Assembly (NCBI RefSeq): GCF_026914265.1
Contig: NC_069133.1
Coordinates: forward strand, 6,507,985-6,571,984
DNA: 64,000 bases
Reading direction: 5' to 3'
Source of the DNA: Mya arenaria
Lineage: Eukaryota; Mollusca; Bivalvia; Myida; Myidae
The position numbers and the translations under genes are program-made. Positions within the stretch are counted from its first letter, which is position 1; the number at the start of each line of letters is the position of its first letter. This document shows positions 11,370-55,294 of this stretch, in pieces. The notes beneath the pieces were generated by a model. It did not search any database. It was not told where the DNA came from and saw only the letters and a list, made by a program, of their open reading frames with translations.

Positions 11370-11465
11370 GGTTTCATTAAAGTGCTACTTGACTTCCTGA
11401 TACATTTTCATTTAACGAAATTGATATTGTCAGTGAGTTTAAAGATGATTTCCATGAAATATTCA

Positions 11466-14345
11466 TGTCCCTGTTGTTCAAATGACCTCATGTTATGCCC
11501 CTATACTTTAAATGGCGTCATGTTATGCCCATGTAGTTTAAATGGCGTCATGTTATGTCCCTGTAGTTTAAATGGCGTCATGTTATGTCCCTATACTATA
11601 AATTGCGTCATGTTATGTCCCTGTAGTTTAAATGGCGTCATGTTATGTCCCTGTAGTTTAAATGGCGTCATGTTATGTCCCTGTGGTTTGAATGGCGTCA
11701 TGTTATGTCCATGTAGTTAAAACGGCTTCATGTTATGTCCCTGTAGTTAAAATGGCGTCATGTTATTTCCCTGTAGTTAAAATGGCTTCATGTTATGTCA
11801 CTGTAGTTTAAATGACATCATGAAATGTCCCTGTAATTAAAACGGCTTCATGTTATGTCCCTGTAGTTTAAACAGGCTTCATGTTATGTCACTGTTGTTT
11901 AAATGGCTTCATGTTATGTCACTGTAGTTTAAATGGCTTCATGTTATTTTCCGGTACTTTAAATGGCTTCATGGTATGCCCTTGTTTTTAAAATGGCTTC
12001 ATTTTATGTCCCTGTATGTTAAAAGATTTCATGTTATGGTCCTGTATTTTAAAAGGCGTGACGTTATATCCCTGTAGTTTAAATGGCGTCATGCTATGTC
12101 CCTGTAGTTAAAACGGCTTCATGTTATTTCCCTCTAGTTAAAACGGCTTCATGTTATGTCACTGTAGTTTAAATGATGTCATGTTATTCCCCTGTAGTTT
12201 AAATAGCGTCATGTTATGTCCCTGTAGTTTAAATGGCGTCATGTTATGTCCCTGTAGTTTTAATGGCGGCATGTTATGTCCCTGTAGTTTAAATGGCGTC
12301 ATGTTATGTCCCTGTAGTTTAAATGGCGTCATATTTGTCTCTGTAGTTTAAATGGCGCCATGTTATGTCCCTGTAGTTAAAACGGCTTCATGTTATGTCC
12401 CTGTAGTTAAAATGGCGTCATGTTATGTCCCTGTAGTTAAAACGGCTTCATGTTATGTCACTGTAGTTTAAATGGCTTCATGTTATGTCCCTGTAGTTAA
12501 AACGGCTTCATGTTATGTCCCTGTAGTTAAAATGGCTTCATTTTATGTCACTGTAGTTTAAATGACGTCATGTTATGTACCTGTAATTAAAACGAATTGA
12601 TGTTATGTCACTGTTGTTTAAATGGCTTCATGTTATGTTCCTGTAGTTTAAATAGCTTCATACTATGTTCCGGTACTTTAAATGGCTTCATATTATGCCC
12701 CTGTAGTTAAAATAGCTTCATGTTATGTCCCTGTATTTTAAATGATTTCATGTTATGGTCCTGTACTTAAAATGGCGTCACGTTATATCCCTGTAGTTTA
12801 AATGGCGTCATGTTATGTCCTGTAGTTAAAATGGCTTCATGTTATGTCCCTGTAGTTTAAATGGCGTAATGTTATGTCCCTGTAGTTAAAATGGATTCAT
12901 GTTATGTCACTGTAGTTTAAATGACATCATGTTATGTCCCTGTTGTTAAAACGGCTTCATGTTATGTCCCTGTAGTTAAAATGGCTTCATGTTATGTCCC
13001 TGTAGTTTAAATAGCGTCATGTTATGTCCCTGTAGTTAAAACGGCTTCATGTTATGTCCCTGTAGTTAAAATGGCTTCATGTTATTTCCCTGTAGTTTAA
13101 ATGGCGTCATGTTAATTCACTGTAGTTTAAATGGCTTCATGTTATGTCCCTGTAGTTGTAATTGCGTCATGTTATGTCCCTGTAGTTTAAATGGCGTCAT
13201 GTTATGTCCCTGTAGTTAAAACGTCTTCATATTATGTCCCTGTAATTAAAATGGCGTCATGTTATGTCCCTGTAGTTAAAATGGCTTCATGTTTTGTCAC
13301 TGTTGTTTAAATGACATCATGTCCCTGTAGTTAAAACGGCTTCATGTTATGTCCCTGTAGTTAAAACGGCTTTATGTTATGTCCCTGTAGTTAAAACGGC
13401 TTCATGTTATGTCCCTGTAGTTAAAACGGCTTCATGTTATGTCCCTGTAGTTTAAATGGCGTCATGTTATGTCCCTGTAGTTAAAATGGATTCATGTTAT
13501 GTCACTGTAGTTTAAATGACATCATGTTATGTCCCTGTAGTTAAAATGGCTTCATTTTATGTCACTGTAGTTTAAATGACATCATGTTATGTCCCTGTTG
13601 TTAAAACGGCTTCATGTTATATCCCTGTAGTTTAAATGGCTTCATGTTATGTCCCTGTAGTTTAAATGGCGTCATGTTATGTCCCTGTAGTTAAAACGGC
13701 TTCATGTTATGTCCCTCTAGTTAAAACGGCTTCATGTTATGTCCCTGTAGTTTAAATGGCGTCATGTTATGTCACTGTAGTTTAAATGGCTTCATGTTAT
13801 GTCCCTGTAGTTTTAATGGCGTCATGTTATGTCCCTGTAGTATAAATGGCGTCATGTTATGTCCCTGTAGTTAAAACGTCTTCATATTATGTCCCTGTAA
13901 TTAAAATGGCGTCATGTTATGTCCCTGTAGTTAAAATGACTTCATGTTTTGTCACTGTTGTTTAAATGACATCATGTTATGTCCCTGTAGTTAAAACGGC
14001 TTCATGTTATGTCCCTGTAGTTAAAACGGCTTTATGTTATGTCCCTGTAGTTAAAACGGCTTCATGTTATGTCCCTGTAGTTAAAACGGCTTCATGTTAT
14101 GCCCCTGTAGTTAAAACGGCTTCATGTTATGTTGCTGTAGTTAAAACGGCTTTATGTTATGTCCCTGTAGTTAAAACGGCTTTATGTTATGTCCCTGTAG
14201 TTAAAACGGCTTCATGTTATGTTGCTGTAGTTAGAACGGCTTCATGTTATGTCCCTGTAGTTTAAACGGCTGTCTGTTATGCCCCTTTAATTTAAATGGC
14301 TGTATGTTATGCCCCTGTAATTTAAACGGCTGTATGTTATGTCCA
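11466..14345 (+). repeat. 30-bp minisatellite, about 96 copies
   Basis: The unit is GTTATGTCCCTGTAGTTTAA plus ATGGCGTCAT, exactly 30 bp for most of 2.9 kb. Two main variants alternate: TTTAAATGGCGTCA and TTAAAACGGCTTCA. A block of unusual variants (ACGTCTTCATATT followed by CTGTAATTAAAATGG) occurs at 13221 and again 655 bp later, which is 22 units less a 5-bp deletion. Because 30 is divisible by 3, local open frames with 10-residue repeats arise. They have no start, context or composition that suggests a gene. Confidence 0.95.
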
Positions 14346-33524: not shown

Positions 33525-36500
33525 GTACATTTTACACTAATATATACACTTAGGATTGCATTAGGGGAATTGGTGTCAAGGTCACTGTAATTTGAAATAG
33601 AATCATGGTTTTCAATCAGTACATTAGTGAGGATTCACACATAGTCAGGAGTTTCATTTTGTTTGGAAGTAGCAGGAAAATTGTTGAAAGTAGATGGGGA
33701 ATTGGGGGATCTCCCCATCAAGTTTCAAAGGGCTAGCAAAATATAGCCAGCAGGGTTGACACTTATTGCAACGCTTTTTCCCTGCCACCATGTCATTCGG
33801 ACGCCTTAGTGACGTTATTTCTTGTAGAAAGCTCATGTGGTTTTGTACCTTTGGCTGGCATGTTTTGGTCAATTTTACCTAAAATAATAAAAAGGTTTCC
33901 GCTCATTTGGAGATGTATACCGTAGATATATGAATGTAGAATAATGTCCAAAAGTTCAAAACAATTTTTTTCACTGATCCTGGTTCTCAGAATTTGTTTC
34001 ACCATGAAATATGAGCACACTATTAGAACACAACACTTTTAAAATAAGTCCCATAAAAGGTTGAAATGTCACAGAATAACTTGATTTAATATGAGATTTT
34101 GATTTTATTAGCACTGGTGAAACTTTATAAACTTAAAAGAAATTTTAAGTTTTCCAATGACCCAAGGTCAGAAAATATTGCCCATAACCAAATAAGAATC
34201 TTTCAAAACATACTTCAAAAATTCTCATTTTTGTTATTGAGTTTGCGACATTTTCTATCCGTTATGAGAAACAAACACTCCTGATTCTTGCGGAAAGTTC
34301 ACAACTATTGTTATATTGCTAGGTGTTTGGTAATTGTAACAAGCGTTGTTGATATTTCATTTGTTTCACTTTAAACATGACTGGTGACTGATCATTGAAT
34401 AAAGCCAATTTTAAAAGTTTGCTGAATGGGGGAAAAGATTCTTAGGGCCATTCCAGTAAAACATATAACCCCCGGGTGGGGGGAGGCAATTATTTAAATA
34501 GTATATACCATAGGTGGGTGTCTTTTTTGCAAATTTGGACCCCACAAGGGTAATTTTGCTTCTATATGGGGGTGGCATAATTTAAAAGTGCCTTTCCCCC
34601 CGGGGCTTATATGTTTAAATGGAATAGCCCTTAATTATACTACTCAAAATTTGATGGGGATCATGTTTTTTAATATAATGTACATACGTATTTCAAGAAA
34701 ACGATATATCAACACTAAATGTTATCAAATGGCATTGTTTCATGTTTCAAATGTCATAAGATATCAGTACCAAACCAATTCCGTTCAAACGTAACGGACT
34801 CCTAAACATGATAGGGGTCAAAAGCAGGCGTATATCAGGTTGTCAACAAATTTGGAAAGTCAACAGAATACCTTTGAACTTTTCTTAAACCAATGTTAGT
34901 AGCGTGTGTGATGTCCACGAGTGTCAATAACAGCTTGACATGGCCTCCGCATGTTGCTGATAAGCCTCCAGAGCTGTTGCTGAGGGAGTCTGGCCCATTC
35001 CTCCTGGAGCGCTGTTCTGAGCTGATGAACCGTTGTTGGCTGGACCGGACGAGCAGAAACAGCTTTCTGAAGCATGTTCCAGGCATGCTCAATCGAGTTC
35101 ATGTTTGGGGAACGAGCTGGCCAGTCCTTTCTCTCGATGATAGCATTTTTCAGAAATTGGTTTTTGTGATGTTTGCTCTGTGTGGGCACGCATTATCATC
35201 CATGAGAATGAAATCAGGACCGATTGCACCTGCATACGGTCGAACATAAACGTCCAGGATCTCGTTACAATAACGAACAGCCGTCAACGTAACGTTTTCA
35301 ATTACGTGTAAGACTGTTTTCCCGTGCATGCTGATTACGGCCCATACCATGACTGAGCCCTTGCCATAACGGTCATGTTCGGCAAAACAAACAGGATCAA
35401 AACGTTCATTACGTCCCCTCCACACTCTGGAACGTCGATCTGTAAAGTCAATACAAAACTTTGACTCTTCTGTAAAAAGCACTGTGGTCCATTCGTTTAA
35501 CGTCCATCCAACGTGTTGACGTGCCCAGTCCAAACGCTCCTGGATGTGGTATCGGGTCAATGGGATGCCAATTGCCGGTCGTCGTGCCATTAAGCCAGCA
35601 CTATGCAAACAATTTCTGATGGTTTTCGTTGAAACTCTTACGTTTGTGGCGTTCTGGAAGTCATTACGTAACGAAATGGCGTTACGAAAGCGGTTACGTC
35701 TGGCTAAAACTGTAATGTAACGATCCTGAACGTCAGATGTAGCCTTTGCACGACCACCACCATGTCGATGTTGAGCATTTCCATTCGTTTGATAACGATT
35801 CCACATCATGCAAACTACACTTTGTGACACATTCAGGTGTTCTGCCACAGTCCTATGAGACAACCCTGCCTCCAGCATTCCAATGCCAACATGCATTGCA
35901 TTGCATGCATTCAGGAGTTAAAGGTCTTCTGTTTGGCATTTTGAACACAATGTGGTAGATGGTCCGAGTAAAAATCAAATACACGAAGCGAAAAACAAGA
36001 AATGACCACATGTTTAAGTTGTTACATGTATGCCAAAAAGCCTTATTTCGTGGGTATGCAGTTTTCCGTGCCGCCCGTGCACGCGCTGGTAGCAATACAA
36101 TTAAAATCATCGAACATTCTAGAGGCCTACGAAGGGATATAACTAATGCTTTGAAATTAAATAAGCATGCTTATTTGGTTAACTTTTTACAAATAACTAA
36201 TCAAGTGATCCTTATAAAATTTTGAGTAGTATATTAGTTATGGATTTTCAAAAAGACACATGCCTGGTGCATTTGGGCATTTAAGAGGACATTTACAGTA
36301 TATTAATTGAATAGAAAAATAGTTGTTGCACAGTGTGCAGTGAATTAAAAAGTGTGTGTAGCAGCTGTTAACTTTCAGTGTGTATAACATTCTTACCCAT
36401 TTTGTATGAACTGTCTGTAATAACAACACCATATGGATAAAAAACTTTGATTTAATCAATGCTTTGAGGAGGTTTTTGATATATTAGTAAGATTGCATTA

Positions 36501-45500: not shown

Positions 45501-48500
45501 TGAACAATGAAATGTAGAAAAGTTTGCTCAATCTTTTTAAATTGTATCTCTGAAATGTAAAGGAAGTCTCTGATTGGCTGACAGAAAGGTGGCCAAAAGA
45601 TGACTTCCTTGTGTGAACCTCAGATTGTTATATTGCGTGTATATTTAGGATATGATTTTAATCACATTGAACAATTATCACCTAGGTCAATGCTAAAGGA
45701 GTACCTAGCCAGACATGAAGAAAAAGAGACATTTAAGGACGACTACAACCCGTCCAAACCATCCAACCCCTTTCTGGGCAAGCCAGATGGCCCCAATCAG
45801 GGGTCATCCCAGGGTCAAGGTTCGGGTGTGGGAGATGTCAGAGAGGGGTCACAGCGGCCCAGTACCGGACAACATATCCTGGTGTTGCTGTTGCGACTGA
45901 GGCAATGCTGCAGTCATCTCAGCCTCATGAAGGATGTGAGTTTCAGTTTTTTGTGTCACATGCAAGCATGGCAGACACATAGTAATTTCTTTATCTCACT
46001 TTTGTTTGTGATCAATAACGTTTGAATGACTTGTAGTCTTTAAACTTGATTTGCACATTGGTCATGGTAAAATTATGACCCCTATCAATGTTAGGTTCAG
46101 TAGGTCAAAGGTCAAGGTCATGGTGATGTTTGTACTCAGGTGACATATCCCAGACATCTTGCCATTTGAATCAATCTCGTATCAAAATACCCTGTATGTT
46201 TCAAGGAGCTTTGCATATTCTTTGTTTGATGAATTTTCCATGTTGGAACTTCTGGTATATAATCACAATGGTTGGAAGAAATGTAGAATGTATGGTCATT
46301 ATATTCATCATTTATGATGAGAGACAATAAGATAAAAGTCTGCCAGGGACCAGTTTCATTTAATGGTCTTTGTTGTAATTTCAATAATCTTAAATGTGAC
46401 AAAGGACAACAATTTAGACAAATTGATACTAGCTCAAGTTCCATTCACACATAAATGTAGTAAACTAAAGAAAATATTACAATTACACAGTTTCAGTTTA
46501 TGATTCAGATCAACTAAGATCTTCTTGAAATGGCCCCCTAGACCCTTTCTGAAAAGGAACCAACCTGGCTTAGAAGATAATGAAATATATATCACCAAGA
46601 CAGCAATTATCATCTGCTGGCTGCTTGTTTTAGGCCCTGGATGATGAAACCCAGGAGAATGAGGGTCTGGAACTGACGCTAGAGGAACAGATGATGGACC
46701 TGTTACTGGATGACCAGGAGAAGGAACCAACCCTGCGCAAGACAGATAAAATCTTTCAGCCAAAAGCCATGAGCACTAAGGTAAGGCATATGCAATTCAA
46801 TGGCTATGTGCACTAAGGTTAATAAAATAAAAATATCCAGATAAACTCATGAACACCAAGATAAGGCATATACAATCTTCCAGATATTTTTTTAAAGGAA
46901 ACGTATTTTAGACAGTCATGATACAAGTTTCCTAGATTACATTTTCTAAATGTCCTTGATTTATCTAGATTACCAATATCTTCTAATTGTGCTTGACTTG
47001 TCTGGATTACCAACATTTTCTAAATGTCCTTGACTTATCTAGATTACCAACATTTTTTAAATGTCCTTGATTTATCTAGATTACCAACATTTTCTAAATG
47101 TCCTTGATTTATCTAGATTACCAACATTTTCTAAATGTCCTTGATTTATCTGATTACCAACAGTTTCTAAATGTCCTAATAACTTATCTAGATTACCAAT
47201 ATTTTCTAATGGTGCTTGACTTATCTAGATTACCAATATTTTCTAATGGTGCTTGACTTATCTAGATTACCAATATTTTCTAATGGTGCTTGACTTATCT
47301 AGATTACCAACAATTTCTAATGGTGCTTGACTTGTCTAGATTACCAACATTTTCTAAATGTCCTTGATTTATCTAGATTACCAATATCTTCTAATTGTGC
47401 TTGACTTGTCTGGATTACCAACATTTTCTAAATGTCCTTGATTTATCTAGATTACCAATATTTTCTAAATGTCCTTGATTTATCTAGATTACCAACATTT
47501 TCTTATGGTCCTTGATTTATCTAGATTACCAACATTTTCTTATGGTCCTTGATTTATCTAGATTACCAACATTTTCTTATGGTCCTTGATTTATCTAGAT
47601 TACCAACATTTTCTAAATGTCCTTGATTTATCTAGATTACCAACATTTTCTAAATGTCCTTGATTTATCTAGATTACCAACATTTTCTTATGGTCCTTGA
47701 TTTATCTAGATTACCAACATTTTCTAAATGTCCTTGATTTATCTAGATTACCAACATTTTCTAAATGTCCTTGATTTATCTAGATTACCAACATTTTCTA
47801 AATGTCCTTGATTTATCTAGATTACCAACATTTTCTTATGGTCCTTGATTTATCTAGATTACCAACATTTTCTTATGGTCCTTGATTTATCTAGATTACC
47901 AACATTTTCTTATGGTCCTTGATTTATCTAGATTACCAACATTTTCTTATGGTCCTTGATTTATCTAGATTACCAACATTTTCTTATGGTCCTTGATTTA
48001 TCTAGATTACCAACATTTTCTAAATGTCCTTGATTTATCTAGATTACCAACATTTTCTAAATGTCCTTGATTTATCTAGATTACCAACATTTTCTAAATG
48101 TCCTTGATTTATCTAGATTACCAACATTTTCTTATGGTCCTTGATTTATCTAGATTACCAACATTTTCTTATGGTCCTTGATTTATCTAGATTACCAACA
48201 TTTTCTAAATGTCCTTGATTTATCTAGATTACCAACATTTTCTAAATGTCCTTGATTTATCTAGATTACCAACATTTTCTTATGGTCCTTGATTTATCTA
48301 GATTACCAACATTTTCTTATGGTCCTTGATTTATCTAGATTACCAACATTTTCTAAATGTCCTTGATTTATCTAGATTACCAACATTTTCTTATGGTCCT
48401 TGATTTATCTAGATTACCAACATTTTCTTATGGTCCTTGATTTATCTAGATTACCAACATTTTCTAAATGTCCTTGATTTATCTAGATTACCAACATTTT

Positions 48501-51500
48501 CTAAATGTCCTTGATTTATCTAGATTACCAACATTTTCTAAATGTCCTTGATTTATCTAGATTACCAACATTTTCTAAATGTCCTTGACTTATCTAGATT
48601 ACCAATATTTTCTAATGGTGCTTGACTTATCTAGATTACCAATATTTTCTAATGGTGCTTGACTTATCTAGATTACCAACAGTTTCTAATCCTGCTTGAC
48701 TGTAATTTCCAGATGAAGGCCTTGATGGACCAGATATTAAGTATACACAGACCAGCAAACTCTAAAGACAAGTGTAAAAGGTTGGTATCCAATAACTCTA
48801 TTTATCTATTTAGATCTGTCATTCCTCATAAATGTTTATTTATCAATATCATATTACTCCGCATGGGTGAAAGTTTTCAGTATTGATACTGAATTCAGTA
48901 TTTTGGAAAATATTTATCCTATATAATGTATTGTAAAAATGGCATTTCCCTATGTAAACACCCTATTTTTAGTATTTTGAAAAATTCAAACTTTCACCCA
49001 ATACTGTATAATTTAAGTAATATTAAGAATGTCTTCTTTTTTTGAAAATATGCCATAGTGTTGTTTATTTTTGTGTTGGGCATGACTTAAGTCTTTAAAG
49101 TCAGCTATATGAAACTTGACGCTCATGTTTGTTTAACAGCATTTCCATGTGGAGCATGCTTATGTACACAAATGATTATTCCTTGATTAATACCAAACTT
49201 AGTGGTGCATGCTGTTAGCAGTGTTAGTGTATTTTTCACAGAGTTATTGCCCTGTTTTGAAAAAATAAAGTATACTTAGAGAGATCTTTACATCTGCATT
49301 TGGTGGTATTGTCCTCACTTCTGTGATAGCCCTAGATTTGACAGATTTCTTAGTCACACAATATTTCCAATTTTCTCATTCATTCAGTGTGATAGTATCC
49401 CAGTGGACCAGCATGTTGCAAATAGTTGCACTACACCTAGAACGGGAGAACATTCGCAGTCATGTTATCAAGGGAAACATTCCGGCCAAGAAACGTATGG
49501 AGTACGTGGATGAGTTCAACAATGATGCAAGCGGCCCAGAAGTGATGCTTGTGTCATTGAGGGCAGGTGGTTGTGGCCTGAATCTGATTGGCGGAAATCA
49601 TCTTTTTCTACTCGACAGTCATTGGTATATTGATATTTGCAGTACAGTTTTTTAAACAATGTCCAATTTTTATACATAATATAATTTGCTTCAACTTCAA
49701 AATCTTATTGAATGATTACTTTTTGATAAATTTCTTTGATTATTTGTATTGAGTATTTGATTAGATATCATTATATTAGAAATTTAACCATGGTATACGT
49801 AAATACACAGTGTGCAGTTATTTAGTAATTTCCCGTCATTATCCTTATTTACTTATCTACTGGTAAACATATCTATTTTCTTATTTTTATACGCCCATCT
49901 TACGATGGCCTAATATGGGAACACCCATGGCGGGCGGGCGGGCCGCTCCACAATGTTGTCCGCTCTCTAATTTGAACATTTCTCATCCAATTTCCACCAA
50001 ACTTCATGAAAGTGTTTGTTGGTGAAATATCTAGGTCAAGTTCGATAACCAGCCAATTCGCTTTAGGCACTCCAGAGTTATGGCCCCCTGAATTTGTCAA
50101 AATTGGCCATTTTAGCTTTGTCCGCTCTCTAACTTGATCATTTCTCATCCAATTTCCACCAAACATCATGAAAGTGTTCATTGGTGAAATATCTCGGTCA
50201 AGTTCAATAACCAGCCAAATCGCTTTAGGCACTCCAGAGTTATGGCCCCCTGAATTTGTCAAAATTGTCCATTTTAGCTTTGTCCGCTCTCTAACTTGAA
50301 CATTTCTCATCCAATTTCCACCAAACTTCATGAAAGTGTTTGTTGGTGAAATATCTAGGTCAAGTTCGATAACCAGCCAAATCGCTTTAGGCACTCCAGA
50401 GTTATGGCCCCCTGAATTTATCAAAATTGGCCATTTTAGCTTTGTCCGCTCTCTAACTTGATCATTTCTCATCCAATTTCCACCAAACGTCATGAAAGTG
50501 TTTGTTGGTGAAACATCTCGGTCAAGTTCAATAACCAGCCAAATCGCTTTAGGCACTCCAGAGTTATGGCCCCCTGAATGTGTCAAAATTGTCCATTGTA
50601 GCTTTGTCCGCTCTCTAACTTGAACATTTCTCATCCAATTTCCACCAAACTTCATAGGTCAAGTTCGATAACCAGCCTAATCGCTTTAGGCACTCCAGAG
50701 TTATGGCCCCCTGAATTTATCAAAATTGGCCATTTTAGCTTTGTCTACTCTCAAACTTGAACAGTTTTTATCCAAATTTCACCAAACTTGCTACTATAAA
50801 TGTTTGTTGGTATATATTCTTGGCAAAGTTCTATAACCAGCCAGGCTCTTCAGGATTATGGCCCTTGAATTGGTCAAAATTTGCCATTTTTGCTTTGTCC
50901 ACTGTCTAATTTGAACAGTTATCATCTGATCTTCACCAAACTTGCTGAAAATATTTGTTGGTAAAATAAATTGGTCAAGTATGATAATCAGCCAAATGCC
51001 CCGAAGCACTTCAGGATTACTGTCCTTGCCATTTAAGCTTTGTCTACTCTCTAACTTGAACAATTCTCATCTGACCTTCACCAAACTTGCTGAAAATGTT
51101 TGTAGCTATAAAATCTTTACCAAGAATGTTTGCCGGTATAAATGCTTTGCCAAGTACACACTGATTGTCTCTTGGGTACGATTAAGGATAAATCATCTCT
51201 TGGAGACGATTTTTACAAGAATGTTGTTTTTCAAATCCCGAACACCTTGATCGTCTTTGGGCATGATTTGGGATTAATCGTCTATATCTATAGACACGAT
51301 TTTCAGGAGCCTTTTCTGTCTTAGAATCCAAGAAATTATTGATGGGCGTATTTTGTGAGTGTCACTCTTGTTTACATTACTTTCTACTGTATTTCTGCTT
51401 CAGGAACCCTGCTCTGGAGGACCAGGCCAGTGACAGGATATACAGGGTCGGCCAGAAGAAAGATGTCTATATACACAGGTAATGATATACAGGGTCGGCC

Positions 51501-54500
51501 AGAAGAAAAATGTCTATATACACAGGTAAGGATATACAGGGTCGGCCAGAAGAAAGATGTCTATATACACAGGTAAGGATATACAGGGTCGGCCAGAAGA
51601 AAGATGTCTATATACACAGGTAAGGATATACAGGGTCGGCCAGAAGAAAGATGTCTATATACACAGGTAAGGATATACAGTGTTGGCCAGAAGAAAGATG
51701 TCTATATACACAGGTAAGGATATACAGGGTCGGTCAAAAGAAAAATGTCTATATACACAGGTAAGGATATACAGGGTCAGCCAGAAGAAAAATGTCTATA
51801 TTCACAGGTAAGGATATACAGGGTTGGCCAGAAGAAAAATGTCTATACACAGGTAAGGATATACAGTGTTGGCCAGAAGAAAAATGTCTATATACACAGG
51901 TAAGGATATACAGGGTCGGCCAGAAGAAAAATGTCTATATACACAGGTAAGGATATACAGGGTCGGCCACAAGAAAAATGTCTATAAACAGGTTAGGATA
52001 TACAGGGTCAGCCACAAGAAAAATGTCTATATACACAGGTAAGGATATACAGGGTCAGCCAGAAGAAAAATGTCTATATACACAGGTAAGGATATACAGG
52101 GTCGGCCAGAAGAAAAATGTCTATACACAGGTTAGGATATACAGGGTCAGCCACAAGAAAAATGTCTATATACACAGGTAAGGATATACAGGGTCGGCCA
52201 CAAGAAAAATGTCTATACACAGGTTAGGATATACAGGGTCAGCCACAAGAAAAATGTCTAGACACAGGTAAGGATATACAGGGTCGGCCACAAGAAAAAT
52301 GTCTATACACAGGTTAGGATATACAGGGTCGGCCACAAGAAAAATGTCTATACACAGGTAAGGATATACAGGGTCGGCCAGAAGAAAAATGTCTATACAC
52401 AGGTAAGGATATACAGGGTCGGCCACAAGAAAAATGTCTAGACACAGGTAAGGATATACAGGGTCGGCCAGAAGAATAATGTCTATACACAGGTTAGGAT
52501 ATACAGGGTCGGCCACAAGAAAAATGTCTAGACACAGGTAAGGATATACAGGGTTGGCCAGAAGAAAAATGTCTATACACAGGTTAGGATATACAGGGTC
52601 GGCCACAAGAAAAATGTCTAGACACAGGTAAGGATATACAGGGTTGGCCAGAAGAAAAATGTCTAGACACAGGTAAGGATATACAGGGTCGGCAAGAAGA
52701 AAAATGTCTATATACACAGGTAAGGATATACAGGGTCGGCCAGAAGAAAAATGTCTAGACACAGGTAAGGATATACAGGGTTGGCCAGAAGAAAAATGTC
52801 TATACACAGGTTAGGATATACAGGATCGGCCACAAGAAAAATGTCTAGACACAGGTAAGGATATACAGGGTTGGCCAGAAGAAAAATGTCTATACACAGG
52901 TAAGGATATACAGGGTCGGCCACAAGAAAAATGTCTAGACACAGGTAAGGATATACAGGGTTGGCCAGAAGAAAAATGTCTAGACACAGGTAAGGATATA
53001 CAGGGTTGGCCAGAAGAAAAATGTCTATATACACAGGTAAGGATATACAGGGTCGGCCAGAAGAAAAATGTCTAGACACAGGTAAGGATATACAGGGTCG
53101 GCCAGAAGAAAAATGTCTAGACACAGGTAAGGATATACAGGGTTGGCCAGAAGAAAAATGTCTATATACACAGGTAAGGATATACAGGGTCGGCCACAAG
53201 AAAAATGTCTATATACACAGGTAAGGATATACAGGGTCGGCCACAAGAAAAATGTCTAGACACAGGTAAGGATATACAGGGTTGGCCAGAAGAAAAATGT
53301 CTATACACAGGTTAGGATATACAGGGTCGGCCACAAGAAAAATGTCTAGACACAGGTAAGGATATACAGGGTTGGCCAGAAGAAAAATGTCTATATACAC
53401 AGGTAAGGATATACAGGGTCGGCCAGAAGAAAAATGTCTAGACACAGGTAAGGATATACAGGGTCAGCCACAAGAAAAATGTCTATACACAGGTAAGATT
53501 GTACAGTGTTGTCCACTTCATTGAGACGCTGTGTTGATTCTGATATCACAGTGGGTCCAATACAACACAATCACCTATGTTTGAAGTATTGCAATCGCCT
53601 GAATTAAATAGTTATCACTACATGTGTGAAACATTTCATTATGAATACTGAAATCAGACTTAAAGTTAATTTTCCTTCTGTTTAGGCACCACTTTTTCGC
53701 CTGTACCAATTATTCGCCCATCCTGTAAAATCCATGTTTAGCGATTCCAGTATGATTGTTGTTTTTTTCAAACAAATAATATTTTATATTAACTTAAAAG
53801 AACAGCTTTACAAAAGGAAACTAACAATATTCTCTAAAATTTATTAATTTATCAGCAATACTTATTGCACCAGGTTGCACCATATTTCTTCGAGCATGGG
53901 ATTTTGAACTTTTACCACTCAACAAAATGGAAATATTTCACCCCGAAATACTTGTTCAAACAGAGCAACATGTTAAATTTTGTAGAAAATAAAAAAAATA
54001 CATTTTACGTCCTAATGATTTTTAATCAATAACTTGTGAATGCTTCGGCCTAGGGACCTCAAATATTGTAGACATTTAAGGTTGCTCAAGACCAGATAAA
54101 CCATATTGATTTGAGTGGTATTTGTGGTTAATGTCGTGGTGACGTTGAGCTGCATTTCTGTTCAATAATTGAAGAATACTTGGAGCGTCAAAAAAATTAT
54201 TAGTATAGTGTTTCTCTCTTATTTTACTGCAGGTTTCTATGTAAAGACACTGTGGAAGAGAAGATAGTTCAACTGCAGGAAAAGAAGACCACCCTTGCCA
54301 AAAATGTGCTGTCTGGGTATGACCTTTAGTTAATACATTTGTAATGTCAAGCTCCTGGTTGTTAATTTGCGCTTTAGATGTAGTGCAAAATTATAGGTAA
54401 ATTATTTTTCTGCAGAAATAAATTAAAGGGTTCAATTCATTGTCTTGAAACCTTATATATACTTAAGAAAATATTTAAATGGCACCAACGGCTGTGTTGA

Positions 54501-55294
54501 CTGATTTGAAGGGCAGTTTTTGGGTGACAGACTTAGAAGTGTAATATCAAGAGAAGTTGTCGCCCATGTATCTGTAACTAACAATGCCCTGCAAAAAGTC
54601 TGAAAATCAGGGAATAAGTCAGGGTCTTTTCTGTCCATTTAGAAAAAAATACCTTAGGCAAATTGGGAAATTTCTTTGACATAAAATTTACATATTTGGA
54701 AAGATGTTTCAGGTATTTTTTTCAATTCAGGATCAAGTACATGGAGAAATAGAGTTTTTTTAAAAAGTGTTATAATTGGCAATATTTGAAATTAAAAAAA
54801 AAACTCAACAAAAACATCATTCTGGGCAATATTTCTCTCTGAAATTAATGTATAGAATCATGAATGTCATTCAAAAGTGCTGATAAATACATTTATAATT
54901 GTAAATGAACAATTGTGCTGAATGAAACCCCAGCTAAGGTGCAAGGCCTGTAAAAAGAGATATTCTTTTCAAGAAAAGGTCCATGTCTAATGATTCTAGT
55001 GGCGCGCACAGCTTTTAAGTTTGTTTATTCATATGCTAATCTTTTAACCAGAAACGAGTCGATATGTGTTGTTTCAAAGGTGCTCAAGATATGTGATACA
55101 TCTAGCTGTTTTCTGGTTAACAAGTCCAGCAGTTTATTCAGCGTTTGGCATGAAGCCATTAGTTTAATAACAACCTGGTTTAATGTAACACGTGATTTAC
55201 CAGTGTGTTGACTATACTCATTTCTTCTTTCAGGAGTGGGAAAACAAATCATAAACTCTCCCTGGCGGACCTACGCATGCTGTTTGGAGTTTGA
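29184..55294 (+). CDS. TTF2: Transcription termination factor 2 (SNF2-family ATPase), complete
   Basis: Twenty-one coding exons, all GT-AG and in phase, give 1,186 residues (human TTF2 has about 1,160). Exons: 29184-29228, 29801-29990, 30434-31371, 32127-32301, 32821-33006, 33425-33524, 37419-37558, 37926-38054, 39612-39765, 40681-40810, 41647-41852, 42187-42251, 42838-42926, 44945-45036, 45686-45935, 46634-46780, 48713-48780, 49388-49624, 51404-51478, 54233-54316 and 55234-55294. The start is the first ATG after an in-frame TAA at 29172. TTF2 is the ATP-dependent factor that releases RNA polymerase II from templates, notably at mitosis. All SNF2 motifs are present: ADDMGLGKT (592-600), DEAH (754-757), LTGTPIQN (781-788) and [11 protein letters not shown] (1121-1131). 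The C-terminus [13 protein letters not shown] matches the human end (KLTLADLRVLFGI, from memory). No N-terminal zinc finger is encoded. Confidence 0.95.
31500..31960 (+). repeat. Dispersed repeat in TTF2 intron 3
   Basis: Two to three diverged units contain CAATAACTTAAGAAGCC, TTTGGTCAGAATGTGTAT and GAGTTATTACCCTTTA. The same text type forms the interior of the element at 49893-51352. No coding potential is supported. Confidence 0.55.
34444..34631. mobile_element. 188-bp MITE
   Basis: AGGGCCATTCCAGTAAAACA at the left matches the complement of the right end (AGGGCTATTCCATTTAAACA). It lies six bases from the left end of the Tc1-type element, in TTF2 intron 6. Confidence 0.75.
34638..36231 (-). 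mobile_element. Tc1/mariner transposon, inactive
   Basis: The inverted ends TACTACTCAAAATTT (34638 onward, and its complement ending at 36231) are flanked by TA on each side, the Tc1/mariner target duplication. The length, 1,594 bp, is typical of the family. The minus strand carries a broken transposase (next entry). It is inserted in TTF2 intron 6, antisense to the gene. Confidence 0.9.
34896..35939 (-). pseudogene. Tc1/mariner transposase with two frameshifts
   Basis: From [10 protein letters not shown] at 35939 the frame shifts near 35895 into [18 protein letters not shown], the helix-turn-helix region. It continues to [26 protein letters not shown] and [13 protein letters not shown] second frameshift near 35155-35185 leads to [19 protein letters not shown] and the end. 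In the DDE triad the second D and the E are present. The first D (usually FTDES or FSDES) is E here. Two frameshifts and a changed catalytic residue make it inactive. Confidence 0.85.
36510..36851. mobile_element. MITE with poly-A/T ends
   Basis: GGCCTAAAAAAAAAATG, then TTTGGTTAGGGTTAC, at the left is mirrored at the right by the complement of GTAACCCGAACCAAATG and a T-run ending in AGGCC. Internal AGGTAGGG blocks are inverted as well. It is the same family as the fragment at 1-100, and lies in TTF2 intron 6. Confidence 0.7.
37806..37874 (+). pseudogene. Relic duplicate of TTF2 exon 8
   Basis: Sequence in intron 7 aligns with exon 8, which begins about 50 bases downstream of it. ATCTCATTGATTGCTAAGCA parallels ATTTCGCTGATGGCTAAACA, and GGAAACTAGAAAAAATGG parallels GTGAACTGAAAAAACATGG. 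Translated, it gives [17 protein letters not shown] against [17 protein letters not shown]. The P-loop lysine context (GLGKT) is lost (AFLKA). The relic and the true exon share one open frame across the junction, which can mislead gene prediction. Confidence 0.7.
38243..39462. mobile_element. Non-autonomous hAT element, 1,220 bp
   Basis: The ends TAGGGATGGCAACGAGTA and its complement are flanked by ATATTTAT on both sides (38235-38242 and 39463-39470), an 8-bp target duplication. Sub-terminal ACTCGAGTACTCGG motifs are repeated in both arms. No transposase frame is present. It lies in TTF2 intron 8 and carries a nested repeat (38626-38935). Confidence 0.85.
38626..38935. repeat. Nested dispersed element with TAGCTCGTCTG ends
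   Basis: It starts TTATTAGCTCGTCTGTTTTT, has a GGCGTCGTCGGCGTCGTCTG stretch, and ends CAGACGAGCGTTGGCACCC, then CTCTTGTTTTA. A related copy is at 43024-43500. It inserted into the hAT element, so it is the younger of the two. Confidence 0.65.
40435..40582 (+). repeat. 24-bp tandem repeat, six copies
   Basis: The unit is ATCCAATATGTTATTAGGTG plus ACAC, in TTF2 intron 9. The unit length is divisible by 3, so a short minus-strand open frame crosses it. Confidence 0.93.
40938..41292. mobile_element. TTAA-type MITE, copy 2
   Basis: AAGTGCATTCTCACAGATTT at the left and AATCTGTGAGAGTGAAGCT at the right resemble copy 1 (6384-6738), including internal TTGACATCTTTCGTTATTTT. The right side keeps TTAA and the left flank is ATAA. 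It lies in TTF2 intron 10. Confidence 0.8.
43024..43500. repeat. Dispersed element, second copy of the TAGCTCGTCTG family
   Basis: It begins TTTTATTAGCTCTTCTGATT, has a TATTGTCGTCGCTTGATCGT stretch, and ends ATCAGACGAGCGTTTTGCAC. It has the same end structure as 38626-38935, and lies in TTF2 intron 13. Confidence 0.6.
43880..44823. repeat. Dispersed element with internal ~165-bp tandem units
   Basis: The ends contain TAGCTCTACTGGCCAAAGG and a complementary CAGTAGAGTATAGGCCC. Inside are three units about 164-166 bp apart, each with TTGTGAACACGATACAGTCT and GATGAAACTTGTACAGTA. It lies in TTF2 intron 13. Confidence 0.7.
46930..48700 (+). repeat. 37-bp minisatellite, about 48 copies
   Basis: The unit is TTGATTTATCTAGATTACCA plus ACATTTTCTAAATGTCC, with a second variant ending TTCTTATGGTCC. 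Runs of the two variants are interspersed. A third variant (TAATGGTGC) marks both edges. It fills most of TTF2 intron 16 and ends 12 bases before exon 17's acceptor. Confidence 0.95.
49893..51352. repeat. Dispersed element with 162-bp internal tandem units
   Basis: The outer ends ATACGCCCATC and GATGGGCGTAT are inverted repeats. Inside, CCGCTCTCTAACTTGAACAT recurs at exact 162-bp steps (near 49961, 50123, 50285, 50447 and 50609), then decays. 162 is divisible by 3, which explains the 251-codon minus-strand open frame. It lies in TTF2 intron 18, ending about 50 bases before exon 19. Confidence 0.85.
51433..53498 (+). repeat. Tandem array of the TTF2 exon 19 end plus its splice donor
   Basis: The first unit is the coding end of exon 19 (GATATACAGGGTCGGCCAGA, then AGAAAGATGTCTATATACACAG) followed by GTAATG. 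About 45 further copies follow, 47 or 45 bp long. Nearly every copy keeps CACAG followed by GTAAGG (some GTTAGG), an intact-looking 5' splice site. Each also keeps ATACAG before GGTCGG, an AG acceptor without a pyrimidine tract. The last copy passes into GTAAGATTGTACAG, possibly the original intron start. If copy 1's donor is skipped, the frame ends at once (CAC AGG TAA), so only the first donor gives a normal protein. Confidence 0.95.

Follow-up and report, generated by a model that had tools for sequence, protein, structure and literature searches.

How does a gene come to carry the end of one of its exons, together with the splice donor, some 45 times over in the following intron, and does this matter for splicing? 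The question is raised by a 64,000-nt stretch of the genome of the bivalve Mya arenaria (contig NC_069133.1, C12:6507985-6571984; designated here the window, whose own numbering is used below). A tandem array at 51437-53497 on the plus strand of the window fills the first 2 kb of the intron after exon E19 of a gene for an SNF2-family ATPase, which we take from its C-terminal sequence to be TTF2-like. Judging from its sequence, the array is probably a splicing-silent minisatellite of the type called mirages, i.e., tandem duplications of exon-intron boundaries, and most likely neutral intron sequence.

Structure of the Array

Tandem arrays were called with Tandem Repeats Finder (TRF). A single array was recognized at 51435-53497, with a period of 45 nt, 45.0 copies, and 93% matches, which confirms the roughly 45 copies of an exon end with its donor reported in the first-pass annotation of the window. 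When split at GATATACAG, the array resolves into 45 units starting at 51437, of which 18 are 47 nt and 27 are 45 nt long, followed by a degenerate stub GATTGTACAGTGTTGTCCA (53497-53516, plus strand) that is similar by eye to units 6 and 10. The founder, unit 1 (51437-51483), consists of 42 nt of E19 (not 46 nt, as first annotated) and GTAAT; it holds the authentic donor at 51479, CAG/GTAATGAT, and is the only copy with T at +5. The 44 further copies (51484-53497, plus strand) each carry CAG/GT, the last donor being CAG/GTAAGATT at 53493. Units 3-5 are identical to unit 1 save the last base. There are 26 distinct sequences among the 45 units, and divergence from unit 1 climbs weakly with position along the array (Spearman 0.36, p 0.016). 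Genome-wide (1,216,080,610 bases in 18 contigs), a probe of two units had 20 matches, all within this array; the search passes over very common words, and only its best candidates are scored. Length and identity exclude a chance origin of the array.

The layout is that of a mirage. Tandem units straddle the exon-intron boundary, the authentic exon is the terminal, 5'-most copy and lies within a conserved SNF2 exon, and splice signals are kept in many copies (CAG/GT in 45 of 45). The earlier proposal that a minisatellite was born across the border of an exon and its donor, in an exon that carries what is presumably helicase motif VI, is supported. An intron gained by AGGT duplication would end inside the copies and the next exon would open with the repeat; here the next exon (54233-54316) and its acceptor, about 0.7 kb beyond the array, are outside the repeat. 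In potato RdRp, intron gain also involved a tandem duplication containing AG/GT, but there the duplication is reported to create the intron (PMC4974935).

Donor Strength and Effects on the Reading Frame

The 5' end of the best-scoring U1 genes in the genome is canonical, as read from one locus in reverse complement. Of the 42 scored U1 small nuclear RNA matches, 35 lie in one cluster (G000:C12:65370154-65467697), with runs spaced about 1.3 kb. Pairing with U1 gave -8.1 kcal/mol for the authentic CAG/GTAATGAT, -11.5 kcal/mol for 35 decoys with CAG/GTAAGGAT, -11.0 kcal/mol for the one with CAG/GTAAGATT, and -7.6 kcal/mol for eight with CAG/GTTAGGAT; the donors are thus not the dozens of identical sites first described. 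The 11 modelled exon donors of the host gene range from -4.2 to -13.0 kcal/mol, the authentic E19 donor being ordinary among them, and the donor after 40810 has the same GTAAT core and the same energy. The ancestral donor was probably GTAAG, with the T at +5 of unit 1 as a later change, because the outermost 3' copy continues GTAAGATT.

In spliced models, use of donor 2 leads to an immediate stop (AGG TAA), in agreement with the earlier claim that reading past the first donor meets a stop at once. Omission of the 75-nt E19 keeps the frame, and one 33-nt copy taken as a micro-exon adds an in-frame repeat through which the model reads. The segment from ATATACAG to GTAAG had been given as 35 nt; it is 33 nt, in-frame and stop-free, in 18 units, and 31 nt in the 27 units with a 2-nt deletion, where the frame is shifted and 14 units contain a stop. 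Neighbouring 33/31-nt copies lie 14 nt apart. Compared with unit 1, the 33-nt exon part has 13 substitution types, four of them synonymous. Since nine of the 13 are nonsynonymous and the 2-nt deletion is present in 27 of the 45 units, the downstream copies show no coding constraint.

Host Gene

The coding exons around the array are all on the plus strand. The exon upstream, E18 (49388-49624), belongs to the helicase C domain and ends with ...LLDSHW; it was assigned from the open frame, the splice sites, and the Pfam Helicase_C match of the joined exons. E19 (51404-51478) is 75 nt long with phase 2 at both ends; its acceptor TTCTGCTTCAG ends at 51403, and its open frame continues into E20 (54233-54316), which was modelled from open frame and splice sites, as was the last coding exon (55234-55294), ending with a stop codon. 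When joined, the exons match Pfam SNF2-rel_dom (1.5e-33) as well as Helicase_C (1.8e-16), and alignments with RAD54-like structures (the best PDB match) and other SNF2 structures run through the E19 segment. The gene had been called TTF2 before; the SNF2-family ATPase is established by Pfam and PDB, while the name TTF2 is an assumption from the C-terminal sequence. A rough motif grep found no GRF-like finger. The C-terminal region has 13 matches in the genome, two of them the gene itself and 11 at places with 38-57% identity; no close second copy and no retrocopy showing past donor use were found in this search.

A second array of 37-nt units in 47 copies is located in the same gene at 46939-48689 and ends 23 nt upstream of the exon start at 48713. 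The branch-site and acceptor region at 48713 looks by eye like the last unit of this array, as in an acceptor-side mirage. Elsewhere in the window, minisatellites at 198-1926 (23 nt, 74 copies) and 11465-14344 (30 nt, 96 copies) had no donor-like site in their first units in a weak automated test, and a 255-aa open frame on the minus strand (35150-35917) is presumably, from its appearance only, a transposase of Tc1/mariner type.

Donor Arrays at Other Exons of the Genome

Array content of the genome was estimated from TRF arrays with period of at least 10 nt in 20 random 10-kb pieces (200 kb). Such arrays cover 19.2% of this sample, which holds 24 listed arrays of at least 300 nt, versus 17.9% of the window. 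By arithmetic from array coverage, the chance of a 47-nt founder overlapping a given exon end is about 0.6%. An animal genome holds a couple of hundred thousand exons. As tandem arrays cover about 19% of the sampled genome, hundreds or more exon-end founders are expected by chance.

Further cases were sought genome-wide with three copies of a donor word spaced as in the array, and with the word read backwards as a control. Spaced CAGGTAAG gave 577+1187 matches versus 658+393 for the backward word, and spaced AGGTGAGT gave 1188+310 versus 591+384, counted as overlapping matches and not as arrays. With this modest excess over backward words, the donor word was rejected as a special feature; the special part is the exon founder. 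The backward-word list also yields an exon-born array (L045, below), which speaks for the exon end, and against the donor word, as the key. One locus was fetched from each of the ten array families counted among the CAGGTAAG matches listed (C1 and part of C2 only), from nine of about 13 families among the GTGAGT matches listed (four low-complexity families were left out), and from five of about 20 families among the backward-word matches listed. Exon-only text was compared with the downstream array in 500 shuffles per locus (all but L043). A codon score was trained on the other exons of the TTF2-like gene, with 69 donors as the null. A case was considered firm when coding homology and repeated exon text were found together.

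Four further coding exons with donor ends are firm founders of arrays, three of them (L036, L039, and L040) among the ten CAGGTAAG families. L036 is a PKG-like exon (PDB cGMP-dependent protein kinase 1, 3e-12), and none of 500 shuffles reaches its score. L045 is a class-B hormone-receptor-like exon (Pfam HRM, 2.8e-4; PDB CGRP receptor, 0.018), again with 0/500 shuffles. L039 has two open-frame paralogs with 80% and 58% identity (0/500), and L040 has 18 further open-frame matches in the genome (1/500). The GTGAGT locus L055, with 0/500 shuffles and a codon score above the 99th null percentile, is likely exon-born as judged from repetition and composition, without homology. At L040 and L055 the TRF array itself begins just past the exon donor. 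Two cases are weak: L044 (Pfam SapB_1, saposin, 0.0027; 23/500 shuffles; unit with 13 nt of exon) and L058 from the GTGAGT scan (73/500; unit with 11 nt of exon). For L036, L044, and L045, the Pfam matches fall short of the curated cut-offs. L035 is strongly repeated (0/500), and its coding status is that of a candidate only; L043 was counted neither as a firm case nor among the loci without an exon.

No exon was seen at L037, L038, L041, and L042 among the ten fetched CAGGTAAG families, at seven of the nine fetched GTGAGT arrays (L050-L054, L056, and L057), or at four of the five backward-word arrays (L046-L049) at the edge fetched; for most of these loci, only the fetched edge could be judged. 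Codon scores of L036, L044, L045, L055, and L058 are above the 95th null percentile, E19 (6.78) is between the 90th and 95th, and L035, L039, L040, and L043 are lower. The score worked badly; it was high, too, at donors further along the purine-rich arrays L041 and L042. An automated test for acceptor and open frame worked badly too: it passed the host array through an AG at 51324, its longest candidate acceptor and not the real one. It was further passed by one of ten CAGGTAAG loci (L039), one of nine GTGAGT loci (L053), and one of 67 array-strands of the random sample; L057 and L058 have no array meeting its filters. L053 was not counted as exon-born.

Paralogs give some view of the order of events. 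In a paralog of L040 at C1:38.669 Mb, the exon and its GTAAG donor are present, and the 301 nt fetched show no array; there, the exon was therefore first and the array came later. The 80% identical paralog of L039 (L059, G000:C1:59661640-59661940) carries an array of unrelated 26-nt units that begins at its own donor, suggesting that this gene pair gained arrays at the same splice site on two separate occasions. In the random sample, a 113-nt, 18-copy array (L025, 429-2475, minus strand) adjoins what may be an exon (LYFDAPEEREDDVDDSRLQNQLDNLRLE), the acceptor of which is repeated in the array; this is possibly an acceptor-side mirage, and the putative exon has no Pfam match.

Origin of the Array and Alternative Explanations

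The array probably began with a local tandem duplication of the final 42 nt of E19 together with 5 nt of adjoining intron, and slippage or unequal exchange would then have grown it to about 45 copies within the intron. A duplication across the donor would spare the 5'-most exon-donor copy, so splicing at the first donor would restore the ancestral mRNA. The extra donors would act as decoys. They are probably passed over, since in exon definition the acceptor ending at 51403 would be paired with the donor closest to it, 75 nt away; mis-spliced RNAs would reach TAA and presumably be degraded. Neutrality is favoured because minisatellites are very common in this genome and the mRNA would be restored at the first donor. 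Two features of the donors weigh against a silent array: the authentic donor is outpaired at U1 by 36 of the 44 decoys (eight are weaker), so the choice of donor must rest on position or exon signals, and the silent reading does not account for the loss of G at +5 in the authentic donor only.

The same features, together with the immediate stop after donor 2, would fit a regulatory decoy array, in which stronger donors vie for U1 and divert transcripts to a stop and decay, array length setting the output. Such a role is possible, and we consider it rather improbable: similar donor arrays are present in unrelated genes, the amphioxus cases are reported with normal splicing (PMC3087553, PMC3902484), the authentic donor is inside the range of the other modelled donors of the host gene, and nothing found favours tuning by array length over neutrality. 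Another function could be to host many U1-bound sites that guard the intron against premature polyadenylation or strengthen exon definition. With canonical U1 in the genome and 44 extra donor-like sites in 2 kb this could be conceived, but the layout recurs in unrelated genes, which points to an incidental origin, and the idea is very unlikely.

Still less credit can be given to use of the copies as micro-exons, suggested earlier; in frame, these would add 11-residue repeats RVGQKK[D/N]VYIH after motif VI. The 18 in-frame, stop-free units and the spliced model that reads through would allow it; against it are the 27 frame-shifting units, the lack of coding constraint, the 14-nt gaps, which are too short for an intron, and ATATACAG, a poor acceptor, and the ATPase would probably suffer from 11 extra residues at motif VI. 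The least probable explanation is an assembly artefact. Tandem arrays are hard to assemble, but the 45 units have 26 different sequences, the flanking exons are intact, and the published assembly of Mya arenaria was built from long reads (PMC10663159). On balance, the array is best considered a splicing-silent mirage.

Relation to Known Systems

The first-pass annotation implied that the array is novel; however, amphioxus mirages are of the same kind, and the same genome holds more cases. In amphioxus, minisatellite-like tandem duplications of exon-intron boundaries were described in globins, at donors and at acceptors alike; reverse transcription PCR suggested regular splicing, haplotypes differed in length, and a model of intron gain was given (PMC3087553). 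Mirages were also reported in PGBD5, with Adh and TnC cited (PMC3902484). The hosts given by these sources are Adh3, globins BflGb6 and BflGb9, troponin C, and PGBD5, with units of 10-72 bp in Adh3 and 150-160 bp in globins, BflGb6 haplotypes with six and three units, somatic instability, and undisturbed splicing (PMC3087553, PMC3902484). Similarly, the Mya array has tandem boundary copies beside an authentic exon and splice signals in many units (AG/GT in amphioxus). Amphioxus is, however, a cephalochordate, and length differences, somatic instability, and normal splicing are reported there, whereas the clam array is known from the sequence of one assembly.

Internal tandem repeats in human segmental duplications are likewise minisatellites at exon-intron boundaries and can alter splicing, but they have a mean of four 30-bp units and are linked, in duplicated genes, to the gain of introns and to alternative transcripts (PMC2812944); the clam array has about 45 copies in a gene for which no close paralog was found. 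The earthworm metallothionein gene is also an invertebrate gene with an intronic minisatellite, including fourth-exon duplications absent from the transcript, but in the part of the source consulted the repeat is not described as seeded by an exon-donor border (PMC12783039). In limited literature searches, no paper on donor-seeded arrays in molluscs and no direct match for donor competition surfaced.

Meaning of the Finding

The kind of array is little known but already named, as mirages; new is the recurrence across unrelated genes of one bivalve genome, to which the many copies add. There is probably no effect on the TTF2-like gene taken by itself. Several natural arrays of near-identical donors, with the authentic one as the 5'-most copy, offer a ready test of how the spliceosome chooses among dozens of donors, and also of the part that tandem duplications might play in the birth of introns and exons. 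They are a warning for annotation as well, as such arrays could give false micro-exons or broken gene models. A wider but unlikely proposition is that exon-border donor arrays are a recurrent class in Mya arenaria, perhaps dozens to hundreds, arising repeatedly at donors, even separately in paralogous exons. Many genes would then carry tens of decoy donors. In some, among them the TTF2-like gene, whose authentic donor is weaker, splicing may vary with the length of the array, and the arrays may provide raw material for new exons and introns.

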